Assembly (NCBI RefSeq): GCF_014191255.1
Contig: NZ_JACHWH010000001.1
Coordinates: 620,001-684,000, forward strand
Reading direction: 5' to 3'
From: Amycolatopsis bartoniae
GTDB lineage: Bacteria; Actinomycetota; Actinomycetes; Mycobacteriales; Pseudonocardiaceae
DNA length: 64,000 nucleotides
Shown here: positions 1 through 18,039 of the stretch, piece by piece
Position numbering within the stretch: the first letter of the stretch is position 1
How the letters are laid out: each line of letters starts with the position of its first letter
Notes under the pieces: generated by a model
Database searches by the model: none
What the model was told of the DNA's origin: nothing
What the model saw: only the letters and a program-made list of their open reading frames with translations
Made by a program: the position numbers and the translations under genes

Positions 1-123
1 CCGAGCGTCGAGGTCTTCGACACCACGCACGCTTCGGTCGAAGAATCGGTACACCACGCGACCACCTGGTTCATGCGCCTGTCTACTGTGGACTCCGGCG
101 AGTCCGCTACCCGATCGGAGTAG
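1..123 (+). CDS. C-terminal end of an unidentified protein (5' truncated by window edge)
   Basis: An open frame enters from the left edge and stops at TAG 121-123, giving 40 residues that include the segment VEVFDTTHASVEESVHHA. Third codon positions are mostly G or C, as expected for a real gene on this strand. The DTTHAS-type tail is reminiscent of C-termini of small P-loop kinases, but too little is visible to assign a family. It ends about 140 bases before the next gene and probably belongs to a separate unit. Confidence 0.5.
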   Translation, partial: PSVEVFDTTHASVEESVHHATTWFMRLSTVDSGESATRSE

Positions 124-263
124 TCGCACGGCGCACACGTGGCAACAACCCACGCGACCCCCGCCGATCGTGACCCGGATCTCGCCCGATGGTTGCAAGC
201 AGGGTGCTTGCAGGAGCTAGCAGTAGGGCGTACCGTGGGAGGTGTCGCGAGGAGATGAGCCGA

Positions 264-722
264 ATGGCAGACGAGGGAGACCTCGACGGCTCGCAGGCGG
301 GGCCGATGGAGAAGGTTGGCCACATCGCTTCCGACATCGGTGAGTACATCCGGCAGCAACGCAACACCGCGAAGATCTCGTTGCGGCAGCTGTCGAAGCT
401 CGCCGGGGTGTCCAACCCGTACCTGAGCCAGATCGAGCGGGGCGTCCGCAAGCCGAGCGCGGAGATCCTGCAGCAGATCGCCAAGGGGCTGCGGATCTCG
501 GCCGAGGCGCTGTACGTGCAGGCGGGCATCCTCGACCTGCCGACCGGGGGACCGGTGCCCGACGCGATCCGCGCCGACGCCGGCCTCACCGAGCGGCAGA
601 AGCAGGTCCTGCTCGACGTGTACGAGTCGTTCCGCCGCGAGAACAACAACCCCACGAACTCCCATTCGCCGGACGTTCCGATCAAGGAGAGTGAGCACCA
701 TGGCGAACACCCGGACCGATGA
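264..722 (+). CDS. XRE-family helix-turn-helix transcriptional regulator
   Basis: A 152-residue DNA-binding protein. A Cro/C1-type HTH spans about residues 25-80, with the typical LRQLSKLAGVSNPYLSQIERG core, followed by a short tail. The ATG at 264 was chosen because a GAGGAG ribosome site ends 9 bases upstream; the ATG at 255 abuts that site. The gene overlaps the next one by 23 bases. From recalled gene order, M. tuberculosis also has such a regulator (Rv0474) just before hbhA, so control of the HBHA-like gene is plausible but inferred. Confidence 0.85.
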   Translation: MADEGDLDGSQAGPMEKVGHIASDIGEYIRQQRNTAKISLRQLSKLAGVSNPYLSQIERGVRKPSAEILQQIAKGLRISAEALYVQAGILDLPTGGPVPDAIRADAGLTERQKQVLLDVYESFRRENNNPTNSHSPDVPIKESEHHGEHPDR

Positions 723-1326
723 AGTGCGCAACATCGTGAACAGCGCCGTCGAGCAGCTCCGGACCCCGCTCCTGGCCGCGCTCGGCGCCGGCAACCTCGC
801 CGGCCAGGCCGTCGCCGACGCCGTCGGCAAGGCCAAGGAGCGCGTCGCCGAGAGCGGCGAGGTCGCGCGCAAGAACATCGAAGAACTGCCCACCGAGGTC
901 ACCACGCTGCGCGAGAAGCTGGACCCGACCGAGCTGCGCAAGCTGGTCGACGACTACACCGAGGCCGCGCTCCGGCTGTACAACAAGCTGGCCGAGACCG
1001 GCGAGCAGGCGTGGGACAAGTTCCTCACCGAGCCGCGCGTGAAGGCCGTCCTCGACCAGGTCGAGGGCGTGAGCGCCGAGGCCCGCGGCAAGGTCGAGGA
1101 CGTGCTGGGCCTGGCCGCCAAGAAGACACGCGAGGGCGGCGCGAAGGTCGCCGTCGAGAGCCACGACGTCGCGGCGAAGATCGAGGACGCCGAGGAGACC
1201 GTCGCGCCGAAGCCGGCCGCCAAGTCCACCCCGGCCCGCAAGCCGGCGGGCACCACCCAGCGGACCACCACCACCGCGGCGGCCAAGAAGCCCGCGGGCG
1301 GCACCACGCCGAAGAACACCAAGTAA
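700..1326 (+). CDS. Heparin-binding haemagglutinin (HBHA)-like protein
   Basis: A 208-residue protein with a long Ala/Glu/Lys/Arg-rich predicted coiled-coil (about residues 1-150) and a basic Lys/Pro/Ala/Thr-rich tail (about 165-208, with KPA and KSTPARKP motifs). This is the layout of mycobacterial HBHA, a surface adhesin whose lysine-rich tail binds glycosaminoglycans. The start is ATG 700, with AAGGAG 9-10 bases upstream; a GTG at 691 overlaps that site. Neighbours on both sides match the mycobacterial hbhA locus. In a presumed soil organism, roles in lipid droplets or the envelope are as likely as adhesion. Confidence 0.8.
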   Translation: MANTRTDEVRNIVNSAVEQLRTPLLAALGAGNLAGQAVADAVGKAKERVAESGEVARKNIEELPTEVTTLREKLDPTELRKLVDDYTEAALRLYNKLAETGEQAWDKFLTEPRVKAVLDQVEGVSAEARGKVEDVLGLAAKKTREGGAKVAVESHDVAAKIEDAEETVAPKPAAKSTPARKPAGTTQRTTTTAAAKKPAGGTTPKNTK

Positions 1327-1338
1327 CGAGCAGCATCG

Positions 1339-1383
1339 ACGAACGGTCCGGCCCGCACGGCGTGTGCGGACCGGACCGTTCGT
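1339..1383 (+). terminator. Strong hairpin terminator after the HBHA-like gene
   Basis: Two 20-base arms (1339-1358 and 1364-1383) pair with a single mismatch around a 5-base loop, starting 12 bases after the stop codon. There is no clear T-tract, as is common in actinobacteria. It probably ends the regulator-hbhA transcript. Confidence 0.75.
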
Positions 1384-1441
1384 GGCATTCTGGTCACAAG
1401 GGACACGTCACGCGGGAAACGAAGGGACGTAGGCTGGAGCC

Positions 1442-1738
1442 GTGCCGCCCATCGCGCAATGGATCATGTTGGTCATCGGTTGGGCCGGGACCCTCGTCGG
1501 GCTCGGTGCCTTCTTCCACGCACTCCTGCAGCGCGCGGATGCGTTCACCGCGGCGGACCGCAAGACCAAACCGATCTGGCTGGCCATCACCGGCGCCGGC
1601 ACCATCGCCATGGGACTGTTCGGCTTCGGCGGCGCGGGCACGCTGTTCTGGCTCGCCGGCATCGTCGCCGTCCTGGTCTACCTCGTCGACGTACGGCCCA
1701 AGCTGATCGAGGTCCAGCGCGGCGGCAAGAACTGGTAG
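1442..1738 (+). CDS. DUF2516 family small membrane protein
   Basis: A 98-residue integral membrane protein with three hydrophobic segments, at about residues 5-28, 46-62 and 65-83. The order after an HBHA-like gene matches M. tuberculosis Rv0476, a DUF2516 member of unknown function. The GTG start at 1442 has a GGAG a few bases upstream. It follows the hairpin at 1339-1383 and so likely has its own promoter in the roughly 60-base gap. Confidence 0.75.
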   Translation: MPPIAQWIMLVIGWAGTLVGLGAFFHALLQRADAFTAADRKTKPIWLAITGAGTIAMGLFGFGGAGTLFWLAGIVAVLVYLVDVRPKLIEVQRGGKNW

Positions 1739-1787
1739 CCCACCAGCCCCGCGGTCACCGGTTGGACAGGCGTCCTAGTCTCGTGGC

Positions 1788-2339
1788 ATGAGGAACTGGA
1801 CCATCTCGGGCACCCTGACCGTCCACCCCGCGGACCAGCGCACCGACCTGCTCGCCGAGCCGGTCGCGAAGGCCCTCACCACGCTGGACGGCGAGCAGGT
1901 CGGGGTCGTCGAGATCGACCCGGAACTGGCGGACACCGCCGCGTTCTGCGAGGCGTACTCCGCGCCCCTCACGGCTTCGGCCAACTGCGTCATCGTCGCG
2001 GGCAAGCGGGCCGGTGAGGTCCGGTACGCCGCCGCGCTCGTGCTCGCCACCACCCGCGCCGACGTCAACGGCGTGATCAAGCGCCGGCTGGACGCCCGCA
2101 AGGCGTCGTTCGCGCCCATGGACGAGGCCGTCGAACTCACCGGTATGGCTTACGGCGGCATCACGCCCGTCGGCCTGCCCGCGGACTGGCCGATCCTCAT
2201 CGACAAGGCCGTCGCCGACTCGCCAGAGCTGATCATCGGCAGCGGCGTCCGCAACGGGAAACTGCTGGTCACCGGCGAGTTGCTCGCGTCGCTGCCCAAC
2301 GCCGAAGTCATCGAGGGCCTCGCCAAGCCCGTCGCGTGA
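1788..2339 (+). CDS. YbaK/EbsC-type aminoacyl-tRNA deacylase family protein
   Basis: A 183-residue single-domain protein resembling the YbaK/ProX family, which hydrolyses mischarged aminoacyl-tRNA in trans. Family-type segments include the central ANCVIVAGKRAGE strand with lysine, and the GGITPVGLPADWPILID stretch typical of the C-terminal half. Length is normal. Its TGA overlaps the GTG of the next gene (2336-2339), so the two are translationally coupled. That coupling to a lyase homologue is unusual and could mean a role on an amino-acid analogue, though this is inference. Confidence 0.75.
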   Translation: MRNWTISGTLTVHPADQRTDLLAEPVAKALTTLDGEQVGVVEIDPELADTAAFCEAYSAPLTASANCVIVAGKRAGEVRYAAALVLATTRADVNGVIKRRLDARKASFAPMDEAVELTGMAYGGITPVGLPADWPILIDKAVADSPELIIGSGVRNGKLLVTGELLASLPNAEVIEGLAKPVA

Positions 2340-3808
2340 CCGTCGTCGTCACCGCTCCCGCGGACCTCGATCCCGTCGCCATCGAGCGGATCGCCGAGGG
2401 GGCACCCGTCCGGCTCGACGAGGACCTGCTGGACGCCGTCGCCGCGCAACGCCTGATCGTCCTCACCGCGCTGACCAGCAGCGAACGGCCCGTGTACGGC
2501 GTCAACACCGGCATGGGCAGGCTCGCGGGCACCACGCTCACGGCCGCCCAGCAGGCCGAACACCAGGCGCGGCTGCTGGTCGGGCGGGCTGTGGGCGGCC
2601 CGCCTTGGCTGCCCGCCGAAGACGTGCGGGCCCTGTTCGCCGTCCGGTTGCGCGGGCTGCTCACTCCCGAGACGGGCGCGAGCGCGGACGCGGTCCGGTT
2701 CCTCGCCGACCGCCTCAACGACGGGTTCGTCCCCGCCGTACCGGCCACCGGCAGCGGCGCCGCGGGCGAGATCATCCCGCTGTCCCACGCCTTCCAGACT
2801 TTCCTCGGCCTCGGCACCATGCTCGACGGCAGCACCGCCGCCGACGCCCTCGCCGCGCGCGGCGCCGAGCCGTACCGGCCGGGCCCCAAGGAAGGCGCGA
2901 CCTTCATCCAGGGCACCCCGATCGCCACCGCGCACGGGATCCTGCGCTCCCGAGATACACGCCAGGCCCTCGAACTGCAGACCCTGGCCGCGGCACTGAC
3001 GATCGACGCCCTCGGCGCGCCGCGCGGCCTCTACCGGCCTGATCTCGCCGGACCGGACACCGTCCTCGCCTCGGTCCTGCAACGCGTCGCGGAACTCACC
3101 GCGGGCGGCACTGAGCGCGGTCTCGTGCAGGCGCCCGTGTCGGTCCGGGTGGGTCCGCAAGCGCTTGCGCACGCCCATCGAGTGGCCGACGAACTCAACG
3201 ACGCTGCCGAGCGCCGTCTCGCGACCCCGACCGACTCGCCCGCCTTCCTCGACGACGAGTTCATCTCGACCGGCGGTTTCCACGCCGTCGACCTGGGGCT
3301 GCGCCTGGACGCCGTGACCGCCGCGCTGGTGCACCTCGGCGAAATCGGCGTGCAGCGCACCCACCGCCTCCTCGATGAGCGTTTCAGCGGCCTTCCCGCG
3401 CAGCTCACCCCGGAACCCGGGCCGCACGCCGGGCTGGCGCCGCTGCACAAGCGGGCCGTCGGCGAGCTGCACGCGCTCCGGCGGCTCGCGGCGCCCGCCG
3501 CACTGGGGGCGCTCGACACGTCCTCGGGGCAGGAAGACGTCCAGGTCTTCGCATTGCAGGCGGGCGAGCAGCTGCGGGCCGCGCTCGGGCACCTGCTGGT
3601 GATCACCGCGAGCGAGCTGATCACCGCGCACCAGGCGCACGTCCTGCGTGGTGGACCGGGCGCTCCCGCTCTGCGGGACGTGCACCGGCGGCTCGGCGAG
3701 TTGGTCCCGCCGCTCGGCGAGGACCGGTCGCTCGGGCCCGAGCTCACAGCACTTGTGGCTGCCTTGCGCTCTGGATCGTCAGTCCTTTCGGCACCGCCCA
3801 GCGCGTGA
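2336..3808 (+). CDS. Aromatic amino acid lyase (HAL/PAL) superfamily protein lacking the MIO serine
   Basis: A 490-residue protein of histidine ammonia-lyase size and layout. Retained against recalled P. putida HutH: Tyr54 in VYGVNTGMG, Gln265 and Arg271 in VQAPVSVRV, Phe315 in GGFHA and Glu400 in GQEDV. The Ala-Ser-Gly triad that cyclises to the MIO electrophile is Ala-Ala-Gly (residues 142-144, in GSGAAGEIIPLSH). Catalytic His83 is Arg84, the Asn of NGT is Gln192, and the Tyr of DPYS is Val268. A lysine, Lys372, sits near the active-site helix. It cannot form MIO in the usual way. MIO-independent members are known, notably ergothionase, which eliminates trimethylamine from ergothioneine. 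The adjacent quaternary-amine transporter fits such a substrate, but specificity is inferred. Its 3' end overlaps the convergent permease gene by 65 bases. Confidence 0.8.
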   Translation: MTVVVTAPADLDPVAIERIAEGAPVRLDEDLLDAVAAQRLIVLTALTSSERPVYGVNTGMGRLAGTTLTAAQQAEHQARLLVGRAVGGPPWLPAEDVRALFAVRLRGLLTPETGASADAVRFLADRLNDGFVPAVPATGSGAAGEIIPLSHAFQTFLGLGTMLDGSTAADALAARGAEPYRPGPKEGATFIQGTPIATAHGILRSRDTRQALELQTLAAALTIDALGAPRGLYRPDLAGPDTVLASVLQRVAELTAGGTERGLVQAPVSVRVGPQALAHAHRVADELNDAAERRLATPTDSPAFLDDEFISTGGFHAVDLGLRLDAVTAALVHLGEIGVQRTHRLLDERFSGLPAQLTPEPGPHAGLAPLHKRAVGELHALRRLAAPAALGALDTSSGQEDVQVFALQAGEQLRAALGHLLVITASELITAHQAHVLRGGPGAPALRDVHRRLGELVPPLGEDRSLGPELTALVAALRSGSSVLSAPPSA

Positions 3809-4466
3809 TCAGCGTGAACGCCCCCTCGCACAGCAGCGCGAGCACGACGACCGCGACGCCGCCGGCCAGGATCTCGCCGTAGCCGGCGCGGCCCTGGGCG
3901 AACCCGTCCACGATGTAGCGCCCGAGCCCGCCGCCGTCGTTGACGATCGCGCCGATCGCGACCGTCGCGACGAGCTGCAGGAACGCGACGCGCGCCCCGG
4001 CGAGGATCACCGGCAACGACAACGGCAGCTCGATCCGCAGCATGATCTGGCCCTCGGTGTAGCCGGTGCCGCGGGCCGCGTCCACCGCGTCGGCGTCGAC
4101 CGAGACCACGCCGGCATAGGTGTTGGTGAACAGCGGCGGCAGCGCGAGCGCGACCAGCGCGATGAGCAGCGGCCAGAAGTCGGTGTTCAGGTCCCATCGG
4201 CTGGCCAGGAACCAGAACAGGATGATCAGCCCGAAGCTCGGGATCGCCCTGCCGATGTTGACCACGCTGCTCGCCAGTAACGCGCCGCGGCGGGAGTGCG
4301 CGAGCCACAGCGCGGGCGGAATGGTCAGCGCGGCCGCGATGACCAGCGACAACGCGGAGAAACTCAGGTGCTCGACGGTCCGGTACGGGATGCCCGCCGG
4401 GTCGGTCCAACTCCACCTGTTCGGCTGACCGAGCCAGTCCCATGCCTCCGAAAGGATGTTGCTCAT
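3744..4466 (-). CDS. Quaternary-amine ABC transporter permease (OpuCD/ProW type), second of pair
   Basis: A 240-residue inner-membrane permease of the glycine betaine/carnitine/choline family. Hydrophobic helices run from about residue 30 to 230. The cytoplasmic coupling-loop region lies at about 130-160 (DAARGTGYTEGQIMLRIELPLSLP, shown in part as RIELPLSLP). The start is ATG 4466, overlapping the stop of the upstream permease gene by 4 bases. It ends inside the convergent lyase gene. It works with the permease at 4463-5146 and the lipoprotein at 5253-6167; no ATPase gene is nearby. Confidence 0.88.
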   Translation of the reverse strand: MSNILSEAWDWLGQPNRWSWTDPAGIPYRTVEHLSFSALSLVIAAALTIPPALWLAHSRRGALLASSVVNIGRAIPSFGLIILFWFLASRWDLNTDFWPLLIALVALALPPLFTNTYAGVVSVDADAVDAARGTGYTEGQIMLRIELPLSLPVILAGARVAFLQLVATVAIGAIVNDGGGLGRYIVDGFAQGRAGYGEILAGGVAVVVLALLCEGAFTLITRWAVPKGLTIQSARQPQVL

Positions 4467-5146
4467 GCACGCCCCTTCCGGGTCCAGGGGGCCAGTGCCC
4501 GTTCCGACAGCCAGAGCAGGAGGTCGACCACCACGGCCAGCACGATGGACAACCCGATGCCGACGATGATCGCCGTCGGGTTGGGCGTGGTGGTCTGGAT
4601 GCCCTGCCGGATGAAGAACCCGAGGCCGCCCATGCCCAGCATCGAGGTGACGGTGACGAGCCCGATCGTGGTGACCGCCGCGACCCGCAGCCCGGCGATC
4701 ACGACCGGCAGCGCCAGCGGCAGCTCGACGCGGACCAGCAGCTTCGCCCGCGTGAAGCCCATCCCGACCGCCGCCTCCCGCACGTCGGCGGGCACCTGTT
4801 CGATGCCCGTGACGATGTTGCGCAGCAGGATCAGCAGCGTGTAGGTGGCGAGCGGGATCACCGCGGTGGTGAACGACAGCCCGAAGAACGGCACGAGCAG
4901 CGCGAACGCGCCGAGGCTGGGGACGACGTACAGCGCGCCCGCGGTCGACAGCGCGACCGGGTAGAACCAGCGCCAGCGCAGCGAGAGCACGGCCAGGCCG
5001 ATCGACACCACCAGCCCGATCGCCAGCGCCGTGGCGGTCAGGGACAGGTGCTCGCCCAGCCGCTGGAGGATGTTGTCGGCGTTGCGTTCCACCCAGCGCC
5101 ACTCGAACAGCGGCCGGTCGGAGTCGGCCAGCACGATCACGTTCAC
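4463..5146 (-). CDS. Quaternary-amine ABC transporter permease (OpuCB/ProW type), first of pair
   Basis: A 227-residue permease with about five membrane helices and the family loop VREAAVGMGFTRAKLLVRVELP. The start is taken as GTG 5146, just after the divergent intergenic region; the longer upstream frame has no membrane-protein character. Its TGA overlaps the next permease start. It is divergent from the binding-protein gene, with a roughly 106-base shared promoter region (5147-5252). The predicted import substrates are betaines or other trimethylammonium compounds. Confidence 0.88.
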   Translation of the reverse strand: MNVIVLADSDRPLFEWRWVERNADNILQRLGEHLSLTATALAIGLVVSIGLAVLSLRWRWFYPVALSTAGALYVVPSLGAFALLVPFFGLSFTTAVIPLATYTLLILLRNIVTGIEQVPADVREAAVGMGFTRAKLLVRVELPLALPVVIAGLRVAAVTTIGLVTVTSMLGMGGLGFFIRQGIQTTTPNPTAIIVGIGLSIVLAVVVDLLLWLSERALAPWTRKGRA

Positions 5147-5252
5147 CCGGCGAGCATAGGTCGTAAGGGGAGGTGATTTCCCACGATGTGGTTTCTGTCG
5201 GTGGTCGCGGTTAGGGTTCCTCTGACCGTGCCGAACTGGAGGGTGAAACGGG

Positions 5253-6167
5253 ATGCGCTGGACAAGGGGTCTCAAGGCCGGGGTGGTGCTCGCCGCCGCG
5301 GTGCTCGGGCTGGCCGCCTGCGGAGGGGGAAGTGACCAGTCGGCCGCGCCGAGCAAGGGCGGGAGCCCGATCGTCGTGGCGTCGTTCAACTTCACCGACA
5401 GCCAGATCCTCGCCGAGCTGTACTCGCAGGCGCTGGAGGCCAAGGGCTACCCGGTGACGCGGAAGTTCAACATCGGCTCGCGCGAGCTCGTGTACCCGTC
5501 GCTGAAGTCCGGGGAACTGCAGTTCATCCCCGAGTACCAGGGCGCGGCCATCAGCAGCGGCTTCAACGAGCAGGCGCCGACCGACGCGGACTCCGAGCAC
5601 ACCAAGCTCGCGCAGCTGTTCGCGCCGTCGGGCGTCGAGCTGCTGAACTACGCGCCGGCGGAGAACAAGAACACGTACATCGTGAAGTCGGACCTGGCCA
5701 AGCAGCAGGGCCTGACCAAGATCAGCGACCTCAAGAAGCTGGACAAGGTCGTGCTCGGCGGCCCGCCGGAGTGCGGCACCCGCGCGAACTGCTTCGTGGG
5801 CTTCCGTGACACGTACAAGCTGAACGTCACGTTCCAGAGCATCCAGGAGGCGGGTCCGCGGCTGGAGCAGCTGAAGTCGGGCGCCGTCACGGTGATCCCG
5901 GTCGACTCGGTGAGCCCGCCGACCGCCGACCCGGACTACACGGTCCTGCAGGACGACCTGAACATCGTGGCGACGGAGAACATCGTGCCCGCGGTGAACA
6001 AGAAGGTCCTCGACGAGCGGGGCGCGGACTTCGCGGCGGTGGTCAACGCGGTGAGCGCGAAGCTGACCACCCCGGAGCTGCGTGACCTGAACAAGCAGGT
6101 CGACGCGGACGGTGACACGGTGGCGGACGTCGCGAAGGACTGGCTGAGCAAGCAGGGCCTCGCCTGA
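5253..6167 (+). CDS. Quaternary-amine ABC transporter substrate-binding lipoprotein (OsmF/OpuCC type)
   Basis: A 304-residue lipoprotein with a basic N-terminus, a hydrophobic core and lipobox LAAC (Cys at about residue 23), followed by a Gly/Ser linker. The mature part is a periplasmic-binding-protein type II domain of the OpuAC family; SFNFTDSQILAELYSQALEAKG and the LVYPSLKSGELQFIPEYQG region are typical. ATG 5253 has GGAGGG about 9 bases upstream. It faces away from the two permease genes. Ligand identity cannot be read from sequence; the aromatic-box residues would need modelling. Confidence 0.88.
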   Translation: MRWTRGLKAGVVLAAAVLGLAACGGGSDQSAAPSKGGSPIVVASFNFTDSQILAELYSQALEAKGYPVTRKFNIGSRELVYPSLKSGELQFIPEYQGAAISSGFNEQAPTDADSEHTKLAQLFAPSGVELLNYAPAENKNTYIVKSDLAKQQGLTKISDLKKLDKVVLGGPPECGTRANCFVGFRDTYKLNVTFQSIQEAGPRLEQLKSGAVTVIPVDSVSPPTADPDYTVLQDDLNIVATENIVPAVNKKVLDERGADFAAVVNAVSAKLTTPELRDLNKQVDADGDTVADVAKDWLSKQGLA

Positions 6168-6213
6168 TCACTAGAGTCGCGGTCGAGAACCACGACGGAA
6201 TCGGGGAGTGAGC

Positions 6214-6651
6214 ATGGCTCAGGTCACGGCCACCGCGGAACGCACGATCGACGCGCCGGTGGAGAAGGTGCGCGAACTCGTCGCCGACTACGCCGGCACC
6301 CGGCCCAGGATCCTGACCGAGCAGTACCGGGACTACGAGGTCATCGAGGGCGGCAAGGGCGCGGGCACGAAGGCGAAGTGGAAGCTGCAGGCCACGTCCA
6401 AGCGGGTGCGTGACGTCGCGGTGACCGTGACCGAGCCGGAGCCGGGCAAGCTCGTCGAGACCGACGGCAACTCGAGCATGGTCACCACGTGGACCGTGCG
6501 GGAGGCAGGCGCGGGCCGCAGCCTCGTGCGCATCGAGACCACGTGGCAGGGCGCGGGCGGCATCGGAGGCTTCTTCGAGAAGACCTTCGCGCCGGCCGGT
6601 CTGAAGCGTATCTACGACGGCGTGCTCGGGAAGCTGGCCGAAGTCGCCTGA
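6214..6651 (+). CDS. SRPBCC (START-like) family protein
   Basis: A 145-residue polyketide-cyclase/START-like protein, starting with the usual ERTIDAPVEKVRELVADY helix and ending in an amphipathic helix (KRIYDGVLGKLAEV). Such proteins bind hydrophobic ligands in a helix-grip cavity. ATG 6214 is preferred to GTG 6208 because the GGGGAG ribosome site overlaps the GTG. It lies 10 bases before the phosphoesterase gene, so they probably share a transcript. Ligand is unknown. Confidence 0.75.
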   Translation: MAQVTATAERTIDAPVEKVRELVADYAGTRPRILTEQYRDYEVIEGGKGAGTKAKWKLQATSKRVRDVAVTVTEPEPGKLVETDGNSSMVTTWTVREAGAGRSLVRIETTWQGAGGIGGFFEKTFAPAGLKRIYDGVLGKLAEVA

Positions 6652-6661
6652 GGGACGGCTG

Positions 6662-7906
6662 GTGGAGGACATCGTCGCGCTGACTCCGCGCGACGAGTCG
6701 GGCCACCAGTTCGTGCTGTACAGCGACTCGACCTCCGGTGAGCCCGGCTGCCCGCACGAGGCCCGGCGCCGCCGGGTGACCGAGGTCATCCGGCGGCTCC
6801 GGCCTCGCCCGGAGTTCCTCGCGTTCCCCGGGGACGCCGTGATGGACGGCGCGGACGCGGGGCAGTGGCGGCACTGGCTCGACGTCGAGATGCGGTGGGC
6901 CCGTGACGCCGGGCTGCCGTTGTACCAGGCCACCAGCAACCACCACTGCTACTCGGCCGAGTGCGAACCGGTCTTCCGGCGCCACAACCCGCAGATCCCG
7001 CCGAACGGTCCGGAAGACCAGCGCGGGCTCGCGTACTACGTCCGGCGCGGCAACCTGCTGTACGTCTGCCTGCACCAGCCCGAGCGCAGCGACGAGTACG
7101 AGTCCGCGTTCCGCTTCGACGACACCGCCTGGCTGGAGCGGGTCCTGGCCGAGCACGCCGACGCGGAGTACAAGTTCGTCGCCGGGCACTACCCGGTCTT
7201 CCCGGTCAACGGCTACTCCGAGGCGCCCCAGTGGTGCTTCAAGCCGGACGAGCGGGAGCGGTTCTGGGACGCGCTGGTGCGCCGGGGCGTCGACGCCTAC
7301 TTGTGCAGCCACGTCATCGCCTTCGACGTGCAGGTGCGGAAAGGGATTCCCCAGGTCACGTCGGCCGGTGCGGGCACCAGCCCGCACATGCCCGAGGGTG
7401 TCGAGTACCTGCACGTGACGCAGTTGGCCGTCGATCGTGCGGGGTCGCGCTACCAGGTGCTCGACGTCCACGGGAACGTCCGGGAGCGGCTCGAATGGCC
7501 GTTTCCGGCGGGAGGCGCGAAGGACTGGCCGGTGGTGGACGCCGTCCGGCCGCCGCGGGGCTTCGACGGGATCCTGCTTCTGCAGATCCGGACCGGCGGC
7601 GGCTGGTTGTCCTCGCCGGGGCGCGAGTTCTGGGCAGGTCCCAGCGCCGGAAGGCTCGCTGTCGAGGTGGACCTGCCCGGGTGCGGGACGCAGCGCTGGA
7701 CCGGGCCCGTGCTCGACCGGGCAGCGGTGCAGGTGGCGTTGCACCCCGCCATGGGGCCGGGCGGAGTGCTGTGGCGGTGGACCGACGAGGACTCGTGGTC
7801 GTCGATGGAATCGGCCTCCGCCCGTGGGCTGTCGGGGTTCCGCTGGCCCGCGGAGATCGAGCGGCACGGCGAGGTCGAGGCGCGGTCCCGCTTTCGGGCG
7901 TTGTGA
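6662..7906 (+). CDS. Calcineurin-like metallophosphoesterase with degenerate metal motifs
   Basis: A 414-residue protein with no signal peptide. Residues about 15-260 carry phosphoesterase landmarks in order: LYSDST (for DxH), FPGDAVMD (for GDxxxD), TSNHH (for GNH), AGHYPVF (for the lone His block) and CSHVIAFD (for GHxH). The first histidine is Thr and the last His of GHxH is Ile, so at least two metal ligands differ. The C-terminal 150 residues look beta-rich. Substrate is unknown. It may be a purple-acid-phosphatase-like enzyme with altered metal use, or an inactive relative. Confidence 0.65.
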   Translation: MEDIVALTPRDESGHQFVLYSDSTSGEPGCPHEARRRRVTEVIRRLRPRPEFLAFPGDAVMDGADAGQWRHWLDVEMRWARDAGLPLYQATSNHHCYSAECEPVFRRHNPQIPPNGPEDQRGLAYYVRRGNLLYVCLHQPERSDEYESAFRFDDTAWLERVLAEHADAEYKFVAGHYPVFPVNGYSEAPQWCFKPDERERFWDALVRRGVDAYLCSHVIAFDVQVRKGIPQVTSAGAGTSPHMPEGVEYLHVTQLAVDRAGSRYQVLDVHGNVRERLEWPFPAGGAKDWPVVDAVRPPRGFDGILLLQIRTGGGWLSSPGREFWAGPSAGRLAVEVDLPGCGTQRWTGPVLDRAAVQVALHPAMGPGGVLWRWTDEDSWSSMESASARGLSGFRWPAEIERHGEVEARSRFRAL

Positions 7907-7926
7907 GGTCGCCCCTTCGGGTGTTG

Positions 7927-7943
7927 CACGCGCCTGGCGCGTG
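7927..7943 (+). terminator. Short GC hairpin between phosphoesterase and reductase genes
   Basis: A perfect 7-bp stem, CACGCGC/GCGCGTG, with a CTG loop, 20 bases after the phosphoesterase stop. It has no T-tract, so it could be a weak terminator or attenuator. Confidence 0.4.
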
Positions 7944-7979
7944 GGTAGCCCGAGGCGAAGAGCGACGTTGGGAGTGGGA

Positions 7980-8981
7980 TTGAACACGGCAACCGAGGTC
8001 CGGCTGGCGGCGCGCCCGCAGGGGTGGCCCACGCTGGACGAATTCTCCATTGTGGACACCGACGTACCGCGGCCGGGGCCGGGGCAGCTCCTCGTCCGCA
8101 ACCTTCTGATCAGCGTCGACCCGTACATGCGCGGCCGGATGAGCGCGGCGAAGTCGTACGTGGAGCCGTACGAGGTCGGCAAGGTCATGCAGGGTGGTGC
8201 ACTCGGCGAGGTCGTGGAGTCCACTGTGGACTCCGTTCGGCCGGGCGACGTCGTGCTGCACGGTCTGGGTTGGCGGACGCACGCCGTGGTCGACGCGAAG
8301 CAGGTGAGCAAGGTCGACCCGGACGCCGCGCCGCTCTCCGCGTACCTCGGCGTGCTCGGGATGACGGGGTTGACGGCGTACGCCGGACTGCTCGACGTCG
8401 CCCAGTTCAAGGAGGGCGACGCGGTCTTCGTGTCCGGCGCGGCGGGTGCGGTCGGTTCCGTCGTCGGGCAGCTGGCGAAGCTCAAGGGCGCCAAGCGGGT
8501 GATCGGCAGCGCCGGTTCCGACGAGAAGGTCCGGCACCTGACCGAGGACCTGGGCTTCGACACGGCCTTCAACTACAAGCAGGCGCCCGTGACGGAGCAG
8601 CTCATGAAGGCTGCGCCCGAGGGTGTCGACGTGTACTTCGACAACGTCGGCGGCGACCACCTCGAAGCAGCTGTCGAGGCGGCCAACGTGCACGCCCGCT
8701 TCGCGATCTGCGGGATGATCTCGACCTACAACGCGGCCGAGCCCCCGCCCGGGCCGCGGAACCTGTTCAAGATCGTCGGAAAGCGGCTGACCATCCGTGG
8801 TTTCCTCGTCGGCGACCACGCGCACCTGCGTGAGCGTTTCCTGGCCGAGGTGGCGCCGCTGGTGAAGGACGGCCGACTCAAGCACGAGGAGACGGTCGTC
8901 GACGGCATCCGCAACGCGCCGCAAGCTTTCCTGGACCTGTTGGCCGGAGCGAACACGGGCAAGATGCTGGTGCGCCTGTGA
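7980..8981 (+). CDS. NADP-dependent MDR oxidoreductase (CurA / prostaglandin-reductase type)
   Basis: A 333-residue zinc-independent medium-chain reductase. The N-terminal half has SVDPYMRGRM, characteristic of the leukotriene B4/CurA reductase group. The Rossmann half carries VFVSGAAGAVGSVVGQLAK (nucleotide loop) and VDVYFDNVGG. The expected reaction is NADPH reduction of alpha,beta-unsaturated carbonyls or quinones in the cytosol. TTG 7980 is chosen because GGGAG sits 5 bases upstream; GTG 7974 is also possible. It is convergent with the PI-PLC gene, 18 bases apart. Confidence 0.88.
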   Translation: MNTATEVRLAARPQGWPTLDEFSIVDTDVPRPGPGQLLVRNLLISVDPYMRGRMSAAKSYVEPYEVGKVMQGGALGEVVESTVDSVRPGDVVLHGLGWRTHAVVDAKQVSKVDPDAAPLSAYLGVLGMTGLTAYAGLLDVAQFKEGDAVFVSGAAGAVGSVVGQLAKLKGAKRVIGSAGSDEKVRHLTEDLGFDTAFNYKQAPVTEQLMKAAPEGVDVYFDNVGGDHLEAAVEAANVHARFAICGMISTYNAAEPPPGPRNLFKIVGKRLTIRGFLVGDHAHLRERFLAEVAPLVKDGRLKHEETVVDGIRNAPQAFLDLLAGANTGKMLVRL

Positions 8982-8999
8982 TCGCTCCGGCCAGTCAGC

Positions 9000-10016
9000 T
9001 CAGCCGCGCGGCAGGACCAGCGGGAGCACCGTCGTCAGGGTCCGCCAGTCGGAGCTGACCACGCTCGCGTGCTTGCCCGCCAGCTGCGTGACGCGGTCGG
9101 TCGCCTGCTGCACCGTCGGGTTCGTGTCGTCGATCGCGGGCGACACGTTCTGCGCGTCGGTCATGATGAGGAAGTAGTGGTTGGTGTCGTACCACGACGT
9201 ATCGATACCGCCGTCGACGTAGGCGCTCGCGTCGCCGTCGAAGAACACGAACCACGGCCGGATCGACGTGTCCGAGTACTGGGTGCGCGGGTCGCCGGAC
9301 TTGGCGCCCAGGACGCTGGCGAACGCGGTCGCGTTGCCGAGGGTGCCCGCCGCCTTGAGGTTCTTCAGGTAGGTGGCGTACTCGACGTCGGTGTGCAGGG
9401 TGTCCGTCGGGTTGGACTGCTCGACCGTGCCGGGGATGACCTCCAGGATCATCTTCCCCTTCAACGCGTTCCTGGTGGGCCAGGCGTTCGCGCGAGCCGC
9501 ATCGTCCAAAGTGGAGTACGAACCGATCAGGTCGGCGGGCTTGAACAGCGCGCTGCCCGCGTTGGCCTTGACGTACGCGTCGAACTCGTCGGGCCCCATC
9601 CCGTCGCGGTCGTCGAACCCGAGCTTCAGTTCGACCTTGACGACGACCGGGCCGGCGTCGGGGTGCGCCGCCAGCCAGGTGCGGATGTCCGCGAGGCACG
9701 TGCCGAACGACTGGTTCTGGCTGCCGCCGTACAGGTTCGACGGCGCGACGCAGTTGTTGTCGTTCCCGATCGGGTTCGAGTGGCTGACCTGCCAGGTCTT
9801 GGTGAGAATGTTGTCCCACACGTCCAGCTCGATCAGCGAGCTGCCCGAGTCGAGCCCCTGTGCCAGGTAGTTGTAGGCGGCCTTGTCGTACGTGTTGTGC
9901 ACCCCCACTGTCGTCGCCTGCGACAGCTTGAGCGTGCCGGTGTCGGCGGCGCTCGCCTGCGGGGCGGCGATCACCGTCGCGGCCAGCAGGACTCCCAGTG
10001 CTCGGACGAACCTCAT
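9000..10016 (-). CDS. Secreted phosphatidylinositol-specific phospholipase C X-domain protein
   Basis: A 338-residue exported protein. The signal peptide is MRFVRALGVLLAATVIAAPQ with an ASA-A cleavage site near residue 24. The PI-PLC X-type TIM-barrel core shows the first catalytic His in VGVHNTYDKAAY and the second in QVSHSNP. Metal-type residues follow in KVELKLGFDD. Several cysteines suggest disulfides outside the cell. It could cleave host or environmental phosphoinositides. ATG 10016 is the start that yields the signal peptide; a longer upstream frame is non-coding. Confidence 0.8.
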   Translation of the reverse strand: MRFVRALGVLLAATVIAAPQASAADTGTLKLSQATTVGVHNTYDKAAYNYLAQGLDSGSSLIELDVWDNILTKTWQVSHSNPIGNDNNCVAPSNLYGGSQNQSFGTCLADIRTWLAAHPDAGPVVVKVELKLGFDDRDGMGPDEFDAYVKANAGSALFKPADLIGSYSTLDDAARANAWPTRNALKGKMILEVIPGTVEQSNPTDTLHTDVEYATYLKNLKAAGTLGNATAFASVLGAKSGDPRTQYSDTSIRPWFVFFDGDASAYVDGGIDTSWYDTNHYFLIMTDAQNVSPAIDDTNPTVQQATDRVTQLAGKHASVVSSDWRTLTTVLPLVLPRG

Positions 10017-10168
10017 CAGGTCTCCTTCCCGTCGGGAAAACCCTGGCCGACCAGCGTTACCAGAAAATGATTCACATCTGACGGGAAGGTACTGCGCCGG
10101 GGAACGTACGCGGCAGAGCCGTTCGTAGGGGGACGCTTCGGCGCCCGGTCGAGCCAAGACTGGTCGGC

Positions 10169-10921
10169 ATGACGACGACGATCCCGCAGACGCGGGTCCG
10201 GCCCGTGGAGCGCATCGCCTACGGCGTGGCTGCCGTGCTGTTCCTCAGTGGTCTGGTCCACCTTGCGGTGCTGCTCGTGTCCGGTACGACGTGGGAAGGG
10301 CCGGTGTCCTACCGGAAGGCCACGACGTTCGGGCTGTCGTTCGGGCTCACGCTGGCCACCCTCGCGTGGGCGACGTCCTTCCTGCGCATGCCCTCGCGGG
10401 CCCGGGCGGTCCTGCTGGGTGCGTTCACCGCGGTGAGCGTCGTCGAGGTCGCGCTCGTGACGCTGCAGGTGTGGCGCGGTGTGCCGTCGCACTTCAACTT
10501 CGAGACCGGGTTCGACACGCTCGTCTCGATGACGCTCGCCCTCGGTGGGGCGGTGATCATCGTGACGGTGCTCGGCTTTACGGTCGCCGCGCTGCGTACG
10601 ACGAGCGGGCTGGCGCCGAGCATGCTGCTGGCGCTGCGGTGCGGTCTGGTCGTGCTGGTCGGCGCGCTGGTCGTGGGCGCGCTCATGATCGCCGACGGCG
10701 TCACCCTCTCCCGCGGCGGCGATCCGCAGCTGGCGTACACCACCGCGGGCGCGCTGAAACCCGTGCACGCCGTGGCGATGCACGGGATCCTCGTCCTCCC
10801 GGCGCTCGCGTGGCTGCTCCGCTTCACGCCGTGGCCCGAGCGGCGGCGCACCCGAGTCGTCCAGGCGGCGGCGGTGGCGTACGCGCTCGCCGTCGCGGGG
10901 ACCTGGGTGCTGTTCGGTTGA
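10169..10921 (+). CDS. Multi-pass membrane protein of unknown function
   Basis: A 250-residue protein with about seven hydrophobic segments, near residues 20-38, 50-68, 77-95, 115-138, 150-172, 196-215 and 225-249. No catalytic motif is recognised. A conserved-looking ETGFDTLVSM loop precedes the fourth helix and a histidine-bearing HAVAMHGILVLPALAW helix comes late, which could hint at haem or lipid contact, but this is speculation. It is divergent from the PI-PLC gene with about 150 bases between, and is followed by a hairpin. Confidence 0.7.
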   Translation: MTTTIPQTRVRPVERIAYGVAAVLFLSGLVHLAVLLVSGTTWEGPVSYRKATTFGLSFGLTLATLAWATSFLRMPSRARAVLLGAFTAVSVVEVALVTLQVWRGVPSHFNFETGFDTLVSMTLALGGAVIIVTVLGFTVAALRTTSGLAPSMLLALRCGLVVLVGALVVGALMIADGVTLSRGGDPQLAYTTAGALKPVHAVAMHGILVLPALAWLLRFTPWPERRRTRVVQAAAVAYALAVAGTWVLFG

Positions 10922-10931
10922 ACATGTTTTG

Positions 10932-10948
10932 AAGCGGCGGAGCCGCTT
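10932..10948 (+). terminator. Hairpin after the membrane-protein gene
   Basis: A perfect 7-bp stem, AAGCGGC/GCCGCTT, with a GGA loop starts 11 bases after the stop codon. It is preceded by TTTT rather than followed by it. It is likely to end the 10169-10921 transcript. Confidence 0.5.
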
Positions 10949-11111
10949 GTGTGCGCCGTCAGCTCGCACCGCCGCGGGTTCTGAGGTGGGTCCTGGCGAG
11001 GACAGCTCCGAAGTGGTGACCTGGCGGCCATGATGAGGAGATCCCGGAGCCAGGGGCCGCCTCAGGTTCCGCTACCGGCACCGCTACGCAAACCACCTCT
11101 GGAGAATTGGG

Positions 11112-11972
11112 CTAGAACACCACCGTGCGGTTGCCGTGTACCAGGACGCGGTCCTCCAGGTGCCAGCGCAGCCCTCGGGCCAGCGTCACCTTCTCGATGT
11201 CCCTGCCCTTGCGCACCAGGTCCGGCACCGCGTCGCCGTGGTCGACTCGGATCACGTCCTGCTCGATGATCGGGCCCGCGTCCAGGTCGGCGGTCACGTA
11301 GTGGCACGTCGCGCCGATCAGCTTCACCCCGCGCCGGTGGGCCTGGTGGTACGGGCGGGCGCCCACGAACGACGGCAGGAAGCTGTGGTGGATGTTGATC
11401 GCCCGCCCCGCCCACGCCTCGCACAGCTCCGGCGGCAGGATCTGCATGAACCGCGCCAGCACGATCGCGTGCGGGTCGTGCTCCTCGACCAGCTTCCGCA
11501 CCTCCGCGAACGCCGACGCCTTGTCGCCGGTCGGGAACGGCACGTGGTGGAACGGGATCCCGTGCGCCCGCGTGATCCCCGCCAGCGTCTCGTGGTTCCC
11601 GATCACCGCGGACACCTCGACGTCCAGCTCACCCGACGCGACCCGGCCCAGCAGGTCGTACAGGCAGTGCCCGTCCTTCGACACCAGGATCACCACGCGC
11701 CGCCGGACGTCGGTGTCTTCCACGCGCCAGTTGGACTCCGCCGACAGCGACGCCGCGACCTCCGCGAAGCGCGCCCGCAGCTCGTCGACCCCGAACGGCA
11801 GCGAGTCCGCCCGCACCTCCTGCCGCGTGAAGAACCAGCCCGTGTCCGGATCCGTGTGATACGCCGCCCCCACGATCCACCCACCCGCGTCCGCGAGGAA
11901 GGAGGAGATGCGGGCCACGATCCCCGTGCGGTCGGGGCAGCCGAAAGTGATCACATAACGTCGTTCGGACAC
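11112..11972 (-). CDS. purU: Formyltetrahydrofolate deformylase
   Basis: A 286-residue enzyme that hydrolyses 10-formyl-THF to formate and THF, feeding formate to purine synthesis and balancing one-carbon pools. The N-terminal ACT-like domain (about 1-80) begins with YVITFGCPDRTGIVARISSF. The C-terminal formyltransferase-like domain carries INIHHSFLPSFVGARPYHQA, with the HHSFLPSF signature, and GATCHYVTADLDAGPII. The GTG start at 11972 gives the ordinary family length. It is last in a minus-strand gene run beginning at olsB, 23 bases after the mycothiol-dependent enzyme gene. Confidence 0.93.
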   Translation of the reverse strand: MSERRYVITFGCPDRTGIVARISSFLADAGGWIVGAAYHTDPDTGWFFTRQEVRADSLPFGVDELRARFAEVAASLSAESNWRVEDTDVRRRVVILVSKDGHCLYDLLGRVASGELDVEVSAVIGNHETLAGITRAHGIPFHHVPFPTGDKASAFAEVRKLVEEHDPHAIVLARFMQILPPELCEAWAGRAINIHHSFLPSFVGARPYHQAHRRGVKLIGATCHYVTADLDAGPIIEQDVIRVDHGDAVPDLVRKGRDIEKVTLARGLRWHLEDRVLVHGNRTVVF

Positions 11973-11995
11973 CCCGCCATCATCCCCCGCGCAGC

Positions 11996-12712
11996 TCAGG
12001 GCGCCGCCAGGGGCTCCAACAGCTCGGTACTCCCGGTGATGACGGCCGCGTTCGGCCGGCCCCACACCTGCCGGTAGATCGCGTCCGCCGGGCCCGCGAC
12101 CGTGACGTCACCGGCGGCCCGATCGAAGCTGATCTCCGGGGGCATTCCCGACGACAAGCGCACCGACCAGTCGCGATCCACATCCGTCGCGTGCAGCGCG
12201 ACGATCCCCGAGAAGGCAGAAGAACTCCAGTCCCGCTGCGCGGGCACCATTCCCACGATCAGCTCGTCGATGCCGTCGACGGCGAGCTCCGGATCGAACA
12301 CCACCGGCGGCTCGTCCACCAGCGCGTGCTCCGCGTCCAGCCGGTGGATGGCCGCCTCGTGCGCCTGCCGCCGCGCCCACGAGCCCGCCACCTGCGGATA
12401 CGCCTTGAACGGCAGCCACGCGGGCGCCTTCGGATCGGCCAGGCCCGCGAGCATCCTCGACAGCTGCTCGTCCCACCACGGCAGCAGCTCGGCCCAGTCG
12501 GCAGGCGGCCGCTCCGGCGTCACGTCCTGCCCGCTCGGATCCGCCAGCGCCGCGTTGACCCACGAGTGCACGCGACCGATGTGCGAGACCAGCCTGCTAA
12601 CGGTCCACTTCGGACAGGTGGGCACGACGGCGTCCGGCCCGGCCCGCACCGCCGCCGAGCGCAGGGCTTCGCTCTGGTTCCGGATCGTCGTCAGGTAGTC
12701 GTCGTGCCGCAC
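11996..12712 (-). CDS. Mycothiol-dependent maleylpyruvate isomerase (MDMPI) family enzyme
   Basis: A 238-residue DinB-fold protein. The N-terminal domain has the WTVSRLVSHIGRVHSW helix with a metal-ligand His and AHEAAIHRLDAEHAL with further His, together the usual three-His metal site of MDMPI proteins. The C-terminal domain is SCP2-like (DVTVAGPADAIYRQVWG). Such enzymes use mycothiol as a cofactor, and mshA in this window shows the organism makes it. The actual reaction is unknown. The first 117 bases lie inside the dedA gene, an unusually long same-strand overlap, but the N-terminal helix there is required by the fold. Confidence 0.82.
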   Translation of the reverse strand: MRHDDYLTTIRNQSEALRSAAVRAGPDAVVPTCPKWTVSRLVSHIGRVHSWVNAALADPSGQDVTPERPPADWAELLPWWDEQLSRMLAGLADPKAPAWLPFKAYPQVAGSWARRQAHEAAIHRLDAEHALVDEPPVVFDPELAVDGIDELIVGMVPAQRDWSSSAFSGIVALHATDVDRDWSVRLSSGMPPEISFDRAAGDVTVAGPADAIYRQVWGRPNAAVITGSTELLEPLAAP

Positions 12713-13313
12713 ACCGCGAGCGTATCCGCCGGAGGACCTCCAGCACAGCCACCATGAGCAGGCCCAATGCGAACGACAGCAGCAGCCCCTTGCCCGGCTC
12801 GTCCGCGAAACTCGCCCCGCCGACACACCCGATCGCGACGCTGTAGACCGCCCAGATCCCGCTGCCGAGCAGGTCGAGGGACGCGAACCGGAGCCACGGC
12901 ACGCCCATGCTGCCGGTCGCCAGCCCGCTCGCCACGCGACCGCCGGGCAGGTAACGCGCGGCGACGATCAACAGCGCGTTGTGCCTGTCGACCTGCGTGC
13001 GCGCCCACTCGTAGCGCGCCGCGCCGCGCTCGCCCCGCTGCAGGCGGGCCAGCATCCGCGGCCCGGCGCGCCGGCCGATCCAGTGCGACAGGCAGTCCCC
13101 GGCCAGCGCACCACCGGCGGCCACCGCGGCCAGCAGCGCGAGCCGCGGCAGGTCCGGCCCCAGCAGCACCGCGACCGTCACCACCGTCGTCTCGCTCGGC
13201 ATGAACGGCAGGAGCGCGTCCAGCGCCGCGACGGCGAACACGATCAGCCACAGCCAAGGCGAGGACAGGGTGCCCCGCAGCAGCTCGCCGGCGCCGTTCA
13301 GCAGCTCAAACAT
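12597..13313 (-). CDS. DedA family membrane protein
   Basis: A 238-residue multi-pass membrane protein of the DedA/VTT group, proposed undecaprenyl-phosphate or phospholipid translocases and proton-coupled transporters. Typical features are the re-entrant region AALDALLPFMPSETTVV and ARYLPGGRVASGLATG with the conserved Arg and Gly. The last 40 residues are charged and probably cytoplasmic; their codons overlap the next gene. It starts inside the end of the acyltransferase gene (8-base overlap), so it is part of an olsB-olsA-dedA operon, which fits membrane-lipid handling. Confidence 0.85.
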   Translation of the reverse strand: MFELLNGAGELLRGTLSSPWLWLIVFAVAALDALLPFMPSETTVVTVAVLLGPDLPRLALLAAVAAGGALAGDCLSHWIGRRAGPRMLARLQRGERGAARYEWARTQVDRHNALLIVAARYLPGGRVASGLATGSMGVPWLRFASLDLLGSGIWAVYSVAIGCVGGASFADEPGKGLLLSFALGLLMVAVLEVLRRIRSRCAARRLPDDDPEPERSPALGGGAGRAGRRRAHLSEVDR

Positions 13314-13983
13314 GGGCGGCCCGCCGGACGGCCGCCTCGGCACGTGCGGCCAGCTCCCGCCGGTCGCCGTCCGGCTCGAACGCCGGGTGCGCCTCCACCC
13401 GCACCTGCACGTCGCTTGCCCGCACCACCCGCCGCAACGACGCCAGCAGCGTGTCCTCGCCGACGAAGGCGGCCACGGTGCTCGGCTCGGCGCCCTGCCG
13501 GTACTCGAAGGTCACCGGGCGGATGGGCGCGGCCGCGTCGATCGCCGCCTGGAAGGCCGCGCGGCGAAACGTCCCGCTCCCGCAGCGGCCGCACCACGTC
13601 GTTCCCTCGGGGAACACCACGACCGAATGCCCGGAGCGCAACGTGTCCGCGAGCCCGGCGACGACCTCGGGCAACCCCCGCAGCTCGTCGCGGTCGATGA
13701 ACCGGCTGCCGCACCGCCGCGCGAGCGAGCTGACCACCGGCCAGCGGCCGACCTCGCGCTTCGCCAGGAACGCCGTCGGCTCGACGGCCAGTGCGGCCAC
13801 GACGTCCAGCCACGAGACGTGGTTCGCGACGATCAGCGTGCCGCGGCCGGGTACGCCCAGCCGGTCGGTGTCGCTGGCCAAGTCGACCCCCAGGTCCGTC
13901 AGCAGTCGCCGGGCCCTCGAACGGAGGTCCCCGCCCCGCGTCAGCGCGGAAGCCACGTCCCGCCACCGCCGCACAGCTCGCAT
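13306..13983 (-). CDS. Lysophospholipid / 1-acyl-glycerol-3-phosphate acyltransferase (probable OlsA)
   Basis: A 225-residue PlsC-type acyltransferase with catalytic NHVSWLD (NHx4D) at about residues 54-60, the substrate motif FIDRDELRG and the FPEGTT block at about 125. It lies 68 bases downstream of a GNAT N-acyltransferase gene. In ornithine-lipid synthesis OlsB makes lyso-ornithine lipid and OlsA esterifies a second fatty acid, so this pairing suggests the olsBA pathway. An ordinary phosphatidic-acid role is the alternative. Cytoplasmic face of the membrane. Confidence 0.82.
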   Translation of the reverse strand: MRAVRRWRDVASALTRGGDLRSRARRLLTDLGVDLASDTDRLGVPGRGTLIVANHVSWLDVVAALAVEPTAFLAKREVGRWPVVSSLARRCGSRFIDRDELRGLPEVVAGLADTLRSGHSVVVFPEGTTWCGRCGSGTFRRAAFQAAIDAAAPIRPVTFEYRQGAEPSTVAAFVGEDTLLASLRRVVRASDVQVRVEAHPAFEPDGDRRELAARAEAAVRRAAHV

Positions 13984-14051
13984 TGTGGTCACCTCAGGTC
14001 GCGACGAGATGACGCAGCGCGGTGTACAGGGTGAACAGACGGCCCACGCGT

Positions 14052-14759: not shown

Positions 14760-14874
14760 GCGCAGATCGTGGCGCCGCCCGACGACCGCCTACCAGGGGT
14801 TTCGGGCTATATCGGGGGAATCTCCGGGTTCGCCCGTACCGGTTGCCCTGCGGGAAGGGTGGGGTTGTCCCCCT

Positions 14875-16145: not shown

Positions 16146-16171
16146 GACCCGAGACAGTACCGTTTGGTCCC

Positions 16172-17908: not shown

Positions 17909-18039
17909 GCCGCCCATACTTCCAGTCCGCCCGCCGGCCCGATTGCCCGTTCGGGAAGATGACGGGGGTCCTCCGGTGTTGCGTTGAGGGGCGGGCCCTC
18001 CGCTTCGTTGCGGACAGGACACAACGGGAGTGAACCAGG

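Follow-up and report, generated by a model that had tools for sequence, protein, structure and literature searches.

The window analysed here, a 64,000-nucleotide stretch of Amycolatopsis bartoniae DNA, encodes a lyase of the histidine ammonia-lyase (HAL) fold with an altered MIO triad. We tentatively propose, at slightly below even confidence and on the strength of sequence comparison, that it acts without MIO as a C–N lyase, releasing trimethylamine from a histidine betaine, for instance hercynine or ergothioneine. Trimethylamine release from a compound of this kind is predicted from what stands beside such lyases elsewhere, namely an importer, a partner enzyme and histidine-breakdown genes, and hercynine is put first because the linked hydratases examined are of the urocanate type. 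MIO-free lyases, either of the clade to which the window protein belongs or of the ergothionase branch, recur with one subfamily of ornithine cyclodeaminase-like (OCD-like) proteins, with PF04069-type importers and sometimes with hut genes, and this module spans distant Actinomycetota and proteobacterial plasmids.

Table 1. Coordinates of the lyase, its active-site codons, its neighbours and related genes at other loci.
Feature	Coordinates	Strand	Basis or remark
MIO-free PF00221 lyase, 490 aa	2336..3808	+	PF00221 275 bits; alignment; clade 100/100
A-A-G codons 142-144, at the position of the MIO triad A-S-G, loop one residue short	2759..2767	+	alignments
R84 codon (HAL H83 position)	2585..2587	+	R in 241/241; H in HALs and T. 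denticola ergothionase
V268 codon (HAL Y280 position)	3137..3139	+	V, L or I in 241/241
K372 codon, aligned with a lysine of ergothionase 6s7j	3449..3451	+	K in 241/241; alignment
E400 codon (HAL E414 position)	3533..3535	+	E in 241/241; alignment
YbaK-like gene (PF04073), overlaps lyase by 4 bases	1788..2339	+	PF04073 match; resident beside permease in lyase-free relatives
ABC permease 2 (PF00528)	3744..4469	-	PF00528 match
ABC permease 1 (PF00528), start codon not settled	4463..5182	-	PF00528 match
PF04069 binding lipoprotein	5253..6167	+	keeps E173 and R177, has R77, without full aromatic cage
OCD-like subfamily members	L056:8316-9323; L064:8266-9258; L128:6340-7368; L179:12001-13002		
PhnD/SsuA-like ORFs	L179:14496-15296; L181:13020-13856; L184:15350-16150; L190:8550-9362		may be enzyme or binding protein

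Active site of the lyase

The lyase gene is an uninterrupted open reading frame with a GTG start. Its residues were compared in a 27-sequence alignment that includes HALs and the T. denticola ergothionase chain 6s7j, and across 241 aligned sequences drawn from the best matches listed, of which 120 are far and 121 near, the near set counting both the window protein and its copy in the database. In the 27-sequence alignment residues 142-144 are Ala-Ala-Gly, as the initial annotation had stated, and are followed by Glu; the triad loop is one residue shorter than that of HAL both here and in ergothionase, and the short loop is common to all 241 listed sequences. The other residue assignments of that annotation were borne out by the same alignment: His83, Asn195 and Tyr280 of HAL are replaced by R84, Q192 and V268, and Y54, Q265, R271, F315 and E400 are retained. 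The column of K372 holds Lys in 6s7j (residue 383 of the chain by our count) and Val or Tyr in HALs.

Among the matches listed, R84, K372, Y54, R271, E400 and the short loop are invariant (241/241), and the middle residue of the triad is Ala in 172 sequences, Ser in 68 and Pro in one. On a FastTree tree built without the loop, this middle residue switches between Ala and Ser at least nine times. Given that the surrounding residues and the short loop stay fixed while the triad middle flips in this way, MIO looks dispensable, and the enzymes of this clade look, as judged from their sequences, able to function without need of it. A sequencing error or a pseudogene could be dismissed, since the changes are common to all 241 listed relatives and dN/dS against one relative (L028) is 0.162/0.630 = 0.26. 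The corresponding values against L028 are 0.07 for the lipoprotein and 0.14 for the YbaK-like gene, so the lyase is under purifying selection that is weaker than that on its neighbours.

An AF2 model of the lyase (pLDDT 92.5) had HAL 7tqr as its top match among solved structures, with ergothionase at rank 9 (TM-score 0.88). Model and alignment together suggest that the window lyase would combine the HAL fold with the absence of MIO, as ergothionase does. HutH (PF00221, TIGR01225) shares the fold and much of the active site, but it has A-S-G instead of A-A-G, a full loop and none of R84, Q192 and V268; the window lyase scores 231.8 bits against the TIGR01225 hutH equivalog, far under the cut-off of 539.15. 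Wherever the listed relatives of the window lyase carry a name, it is HAL or aromatic amino acid lyase. An NCBIfam search with six lyases of the MIO-free kind listed no ergothionase match, and none of the 16 pattern matches in a scan of viral contigs was a relative of the lyase. The 7.76 Mb genome holds two further PF00221 genes; the better-scoring of these reaches 613 bits, and the ORF adjoining it reads like a urocanate hydratase.

Phylogeny of the lyase

In our main tree of 40 proteins, the window lyase falls within a 17-row actinobacterial clade (100/100), a starred clade that lies apart both from T. denticola ergothionase and from the MIO-type HALs. The latter form one branch (98/94, starred), and one change parts the MIO rows from the MIO-free rows. 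The initial annotation had considered that the protein might sit within the MIO-containing HALs with a local sequence change at residue 143; the tree places it outside them in a clade of its own, and such a change is excluded by the 241 listed sequences. The solved ergothionase groups at 100/100 with OCD-linked lyases of Polaromonas and Paraburkholderia plasmids (L181, L186). The tree bears out the suggested link to ergothionase in so far as the solved enzyme groups with two lyases sharing an OCD-like neighbour; the window lyase itself belongs to the separate clade. T. denticola ergothionase (PDB 6s7j/6s7q) and the window lyase have in common the HAL fold, the absence of MIO, the short loop, an aliphatic residue for Tyr280, Lys at the K372 column and Y54, R271 and E400; they differ in clade, in the His that ergothionase has at the R84 position and in overall sequence (about 22% identity in the structural alignment).

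In the 40-protein tree, R84 and K372 are found together in 26 rows at two places. One place is the window's clade, and the other is a group of nine rows (89/67, not starred) whose sources are rhizobia, Azospirillum, Martelella, a Rhodobacteraceae strain and Streptomyces. With a different set of rows the deeper branching is not settled, and in a further tree the MIO-free rows form one side (94/84); a single loss of MIO would fit. Three further MIO-free lyases are ergothionase-like, with His84 and no Lys372 (L135:13275-14834, L125:14757-16232 and L127:6185-7639); they adjoin hut genes and do not directly adjoin an OCD-like gene. The L135 protein scores 261 bits against 6s7j.

Genes surrounding the lyase in the window

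The lyase gene shares 4 bases with the YbaK-like gene and about 65 with the convergent permease gene. The initial annotation had read the first of these overlaps as coupling to a YbaK deacylase; the overlap stands, but in lyase-free relatives the YbaK-like gene remains directly beside the permease in at least five of seven stretches. We therefore set it aside as a functional partner, and it is probably a resident neighbour outside the module.

The same annotation had placed the lyase next to an OpuC/EgtU-type betaine transporter. A PF04069 protein and two permeases are indeed present, but the lipoprotein lacks the aromatic cage. No OpuCA-type ATPase (>50% identity) was found in positions 1-20000 of the window. 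An isolated ATPase of this type is encoded elsewhere in the genome (L163:1471-2550; G000 C1:1607659), between protease-like and malic-enzyme-like ORFs, and is a possible partner of the window permeases. A second lipoprotein (G000 C18:13690-14601; L171:9688-10605) is 71% identical to the window's and has no permease of its own in the stretch read.

Distribution in the genus and family

Within the window's genus, the clade lyase was found in 8 of 19 genomes when all candidates were scored (absent from 11), and the importer lipoprotein in all 19. In a sample of 346 family genomes the lipoprotein is present in 64 and the lyase in at least 55, a lower bound because four candidates were scored per genome and the lyases of G221 and G261 were missed.

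A uniform census covered 33 family stretches, which represent part of the lyase-bearing family genomes, and 13 distant stretches; gene calls in unannotated loci came from our own codon-score script. A transporter component is present in 27/33 family and 9/13 distant stretches, and an OCD-like gene in 17/33 (L107, L108 and L110-L112 having been chosen for theirs) and 7/13; one distant stretch, L160, was brought in by the OCD search, and leaving it out gives distant counts of 8/12 for the transporter and 6/12 for OCD. Genes of the hut type occur in 0/33 family and 5/13 distant stretches. The distant clade loci leave out L135, which has an ordinary HutH together with a gene of the ergothionase-like kind, and L004-L007 were not recounted. 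Co-location of lyase and importer in other genomes, on which the initial annotation had made its case depend, is thus upheld by these counts and by the rhizobial-type plasmids described below. The proposed linkage of import to elimination is not supported in the form in which it was put: the window's lipoprotein lacks the aromatic cage, the importer's lipoprotein is in 19/19 genomes of the genus against 8/19 for the lyase, and genus g20 has the OCD-lyase pair without an importer.

Gene order varies around this theme. In the window's genus it is YbaK - lyase, with no OCD-like gene found; in the g16 stretches with an OCD-like gene it is YbaK - OCD - lyase - convergent permeases - lipoprotein; and in one g19 genome the ATPase, both permeases, binding protein, OCD and lyase are consecutive in the same direction. 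Beside the g19 module, on other strands, ORFs at L064:10768-15764 read like a thioesterase, a carnitine dehydrogenase, a beta-keto acid cleavage enzyme and a BCCT carrier. RpiR-type regulator ORFs recur beside modules (L064:3737-4585, L125:3415-4269 and L135:12298-13128, with 43-45% identity to the L064 one).

The OCD-like partner

The partner protein matches several models of the ornithine cyclodeaminase/mu-crystallin family (PF02423 type), all below the curated NCBIfam cut-offs. Its subfamily differs from that family in an Arg at the second-glycine position of the nucleotide-binding motif, together with other fixed residues, and has the fixed motifs GARGTA in the nucleotide site and FWHRGL near the C-terminus. 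Among solved structures, a pyrroline-carboxylate reductase and alanine dehydrogenase come closest.

An orthologue was not found in the window's genome, where the best candidate has 32% identity, so this partner is invisible from the window alone. In the family sample the OCD-like gene is present in 28 of 346 genomes and lies directly beside the lyase in 27 of these (25 by gene coordinates and two by a separate look), the exception being G045. On two plasmids, from Comamonadaceae and Rhodococcus, the OCD-like gene accompanies an ordinary HutH of the MIO type, in the Comamonadaceae case within a complete hut operon, and the subfamily is therefore not specific to MIO-free lyases; in Terrarubrum it occurs with no lyase within the stretch. 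The subfamily is found on 84 plasmid records, 69 of them from Rhizobium. A literature search over titles and abstract openings found no paper on the lyase-OCD pair.

Loci in distant Actinomycetota and on plasmids

At L128 and L129 the order OCD - lyase - OpuCA - permease - permease - binding protein runs in one direction. In a phylum sample of 396 genomes the OCD-like gene occurs in 12, ten of which also have a lyase; nine of these ten are in our lyase list, and in the tenth the lyase gene is cut off after its start by the end of a contig. No lyase was found in G545, which has the OCD-like gene. Six further OCD stretches from this sample have ABC genes beside the OCD-like gene in every case and hutF/hutI-type genes in three. 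Instead of a clade lyase, G506 has a lyase of the ergothionase branch carrying R84 and K372; both residues, and a triad loop one residue short, are found in all 120 homologues listed for it, and those that are named are nearly all from Streptomyces.

Plasmids of Rhizobium acidisoli and Sinorhizobium B11 carry an ABC system with a PF04069-type binding protein, two LLM-type oxidoreductases (matching NtaA/DmoA models in R. acidisoli), OCD, an annotated histidine ammonia-lyase and a PhnD-like protein. Annotated HutC genes stand beside the lyase in Martelella, R. leguminosarum and R. lentis, a Paraburkholderia plasmid has the order OCD - urocanate hydratase - MIO-free lyase, and a Rhodobacteraceae plasmid has OCD and lyase with no importer. 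Four linked urocanate hydratases score above the hutU cut-off and below the cut-offs of the thiourocanate models. Cysteine-dioxygenase-type genes are near L125, L127 and L159, rhodanese near L127 and L157, and YeiH-family genes near L127, L181, L182, L193 and, weakly, L185; these neighbours hint at sulfur and hence at ergothioneine. In several plasmid loci a PhnD/SsuA-like protein without a transporter of its own directly follows the OCD-like gene or the lyase.

Binding pocket of the importer

The report on EgtUC describes an ergothioneine site in which F293, Y341, Y419 and Y443 lie over N339, K242, T296 and R379 contact the carboxylate and E375 contacts the ring (PMC9732360). At positions 293, 419 and 443 the window lipoprotein has Y95, D218 and E242, and at 341 the residue depends on the alignment, being Tyr in one and Asn in another. 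Positions 242 and 244 are F45 and F47, R77 replaces T275, and the equivalents of E375 and R379 are kept as E173 and R177. Like the EgtU/OpuC/ProX-type importers (PF04069), the window system thus has a lipoprotein of this family, two permeases and the E375 and R379 equivalents; unlike them, it has lost the aromatic cage (F293/Y341/Y419/Y443) and the K242 and G244 equivalents, and no ATPase is encoded alongside. EgtU-type ergothioneine binding by the window lipoprotein is rejected on these pocket residues. A Cys-x5-Cys pair at residues 174 and 180 flanks the Arg matching EgtUC R379 and could form a disulfide at the pocket; the pair is also present in the g16 and g19 binding proteins and absent from L125 and L128.

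Of 13 actinobacterial module binding proteins, the window's lipoprotein among them, none has an aromatic residue at 443 or the full cage; they have an acidic or amide residue at 443 and Arg at 275, and both E375 and R379 are retained. In rhizobial-type modules, three binding proteins (L179, L180 and L184b) have all four cage aromatics together with K242, T296, N339 and R379, and a fourth (L193) has three of the four cage positions, with Ala at 419; L184a, a second Martelella binding protein of another subtype, is outside this count. Judged by these residues, the proteobacterial modules appear to give the betaine proposal its best support and the importer of the window the least.

Discussion

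The reaction that we envisage is one in which the leaving amine, most likely trimethylamine, would already be a good leaving group. As in HAL, the carboxylate would be held by R271 and Y54; with V268 and the short loop, the space that Tyr280 and MIO take up in HAL would be free for a bulky amine, and E400, R84 and K372 may surround the ring and the beta-proton; the product, urocanate or thiourocanate, would then pass to the hut pathway. We count in favour of this proposal the invariant residues with at least nine Ala/Ser switches, the 100/100 grouping of ergothionase with OCD-linked lyases, the OCD-lyase pairing and the full cage in three rhizobial-type proteins. Ergothionase is described as lacking MIO (PMC13405746). 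Counted against it are the 13 actinobacterial binding proteins without a cage, R84 in place of the His of ergothionase and the finding of hut genes near none of the 33 family lyases, and the strongest counter-evidence is the lost cage together with an importer that is independent of the lyase in this genus. No one betaine is favoured by all of the evidence, because the hydratases are of the urocanate type whereas the sulfur-type neighbours point to ergothioneine. In the window's lineage, which lacks the OCD-like partner and has an altered importer pocket, the substrate may have drifted.

The cage-free pockets of the 13 actinobacterial binding proteins, which show an acidic or amide residue at 443 and an additional Arg at 275 and retain E375 and R379, could also suit a different substrate for the actinobacterial branch. 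This would be a histidine-like compound, such as an opine-like N-carboxyalkyl-histidine, whose amine is not quaternary and which carries a second acidic group; R84 and K372 would bind its extra carboxylate while the OCD-like enzyme handles an imine or the released amino acid. The invariance of R84 in the 241 listed sequences agrees with this, as do the structures nearest to the OCD-like protein and the fact that the OCD family acts on imines. We consider it unlikely all the same, because rhizobial-type modules with the same OCD subfamily and R84/K372 lyases have betaine-type cages, and because an ordinary amine leaving group gives no reason for the loss of MIO. That the enzyme is an ergothionase in the strict sense, converting ergothioneine to thiourocanate and trimethylamine, is quite improbable: the loop shortening and the lysine shared with 6s7j speak for it, as do the cysteine-dioxygenase-type, rhodanese or YeiH-family genes near some module loci, but the window lyase lies outside the branch of T. 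denticola ergothionase with R84 for H83, the four linked hydratases fall below the thiourocanate cut-offs and the window lipoprotein lacks the EgtU specificity residues.

That the protein catalyses a different reaction or none, for example as an isomerase, a mutase or a ligand sensor, would accord with its faster change relative to the neighbouring genes and with its absence from 11 of the 19 genomes of the genus; we hold it improbable in view of the invariant HAL active-site residues Y54, R271 and E400 and of operons with metabolic enzymes and importers. Ser at the triad middle in 68 of the 241 listed relatives might even suggest an ordinary aromatic amino acid ammonia-lyase in which MIO or an equivalent is still formed, yet Ala in the window, a loop that is short in 241/241, the separate clade and the score far under the hutH cut-off leave this with hardly any probability.

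Returning to histidine betaine elimination, we regard it as possible, and advance it with some caution, that R84/K372 MIO-free lyases, at two places in the PF00221 tree, constitute with OCD, a PF04069 importer and hut genes an undescribed and widespread route that strips trimethylamine from histidine betaines, hercynine foremost, and delivers the product to histidine breakdown, the Amycolatopsis form being reduced and its importer re-tuned. An importer with an extra histidase-type gene inside a hut locus has a parallel in Pseudomonas fluorescens, where the hut insert hutTu-hutXWV-hutH1 combines an ABC importer with an extra histidase gene that is dispensable for growth on histidine (PMC8871633).

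If this proposal is true, hercynine or ergothioneine would have a bacterial sink in soil and in legume symbionts, and the predicted release of trimethylamine makes the idea directly testable. To our knowledge, in the literature covered, ergothionase is the sole characterised MIO-free enzyme of the HAL fold. A second MIO-free clade would correct many gene names that now read HAL or aromatic amino acid lyase, and would show the HAL fold at work when the leaving group needs no cofactor.
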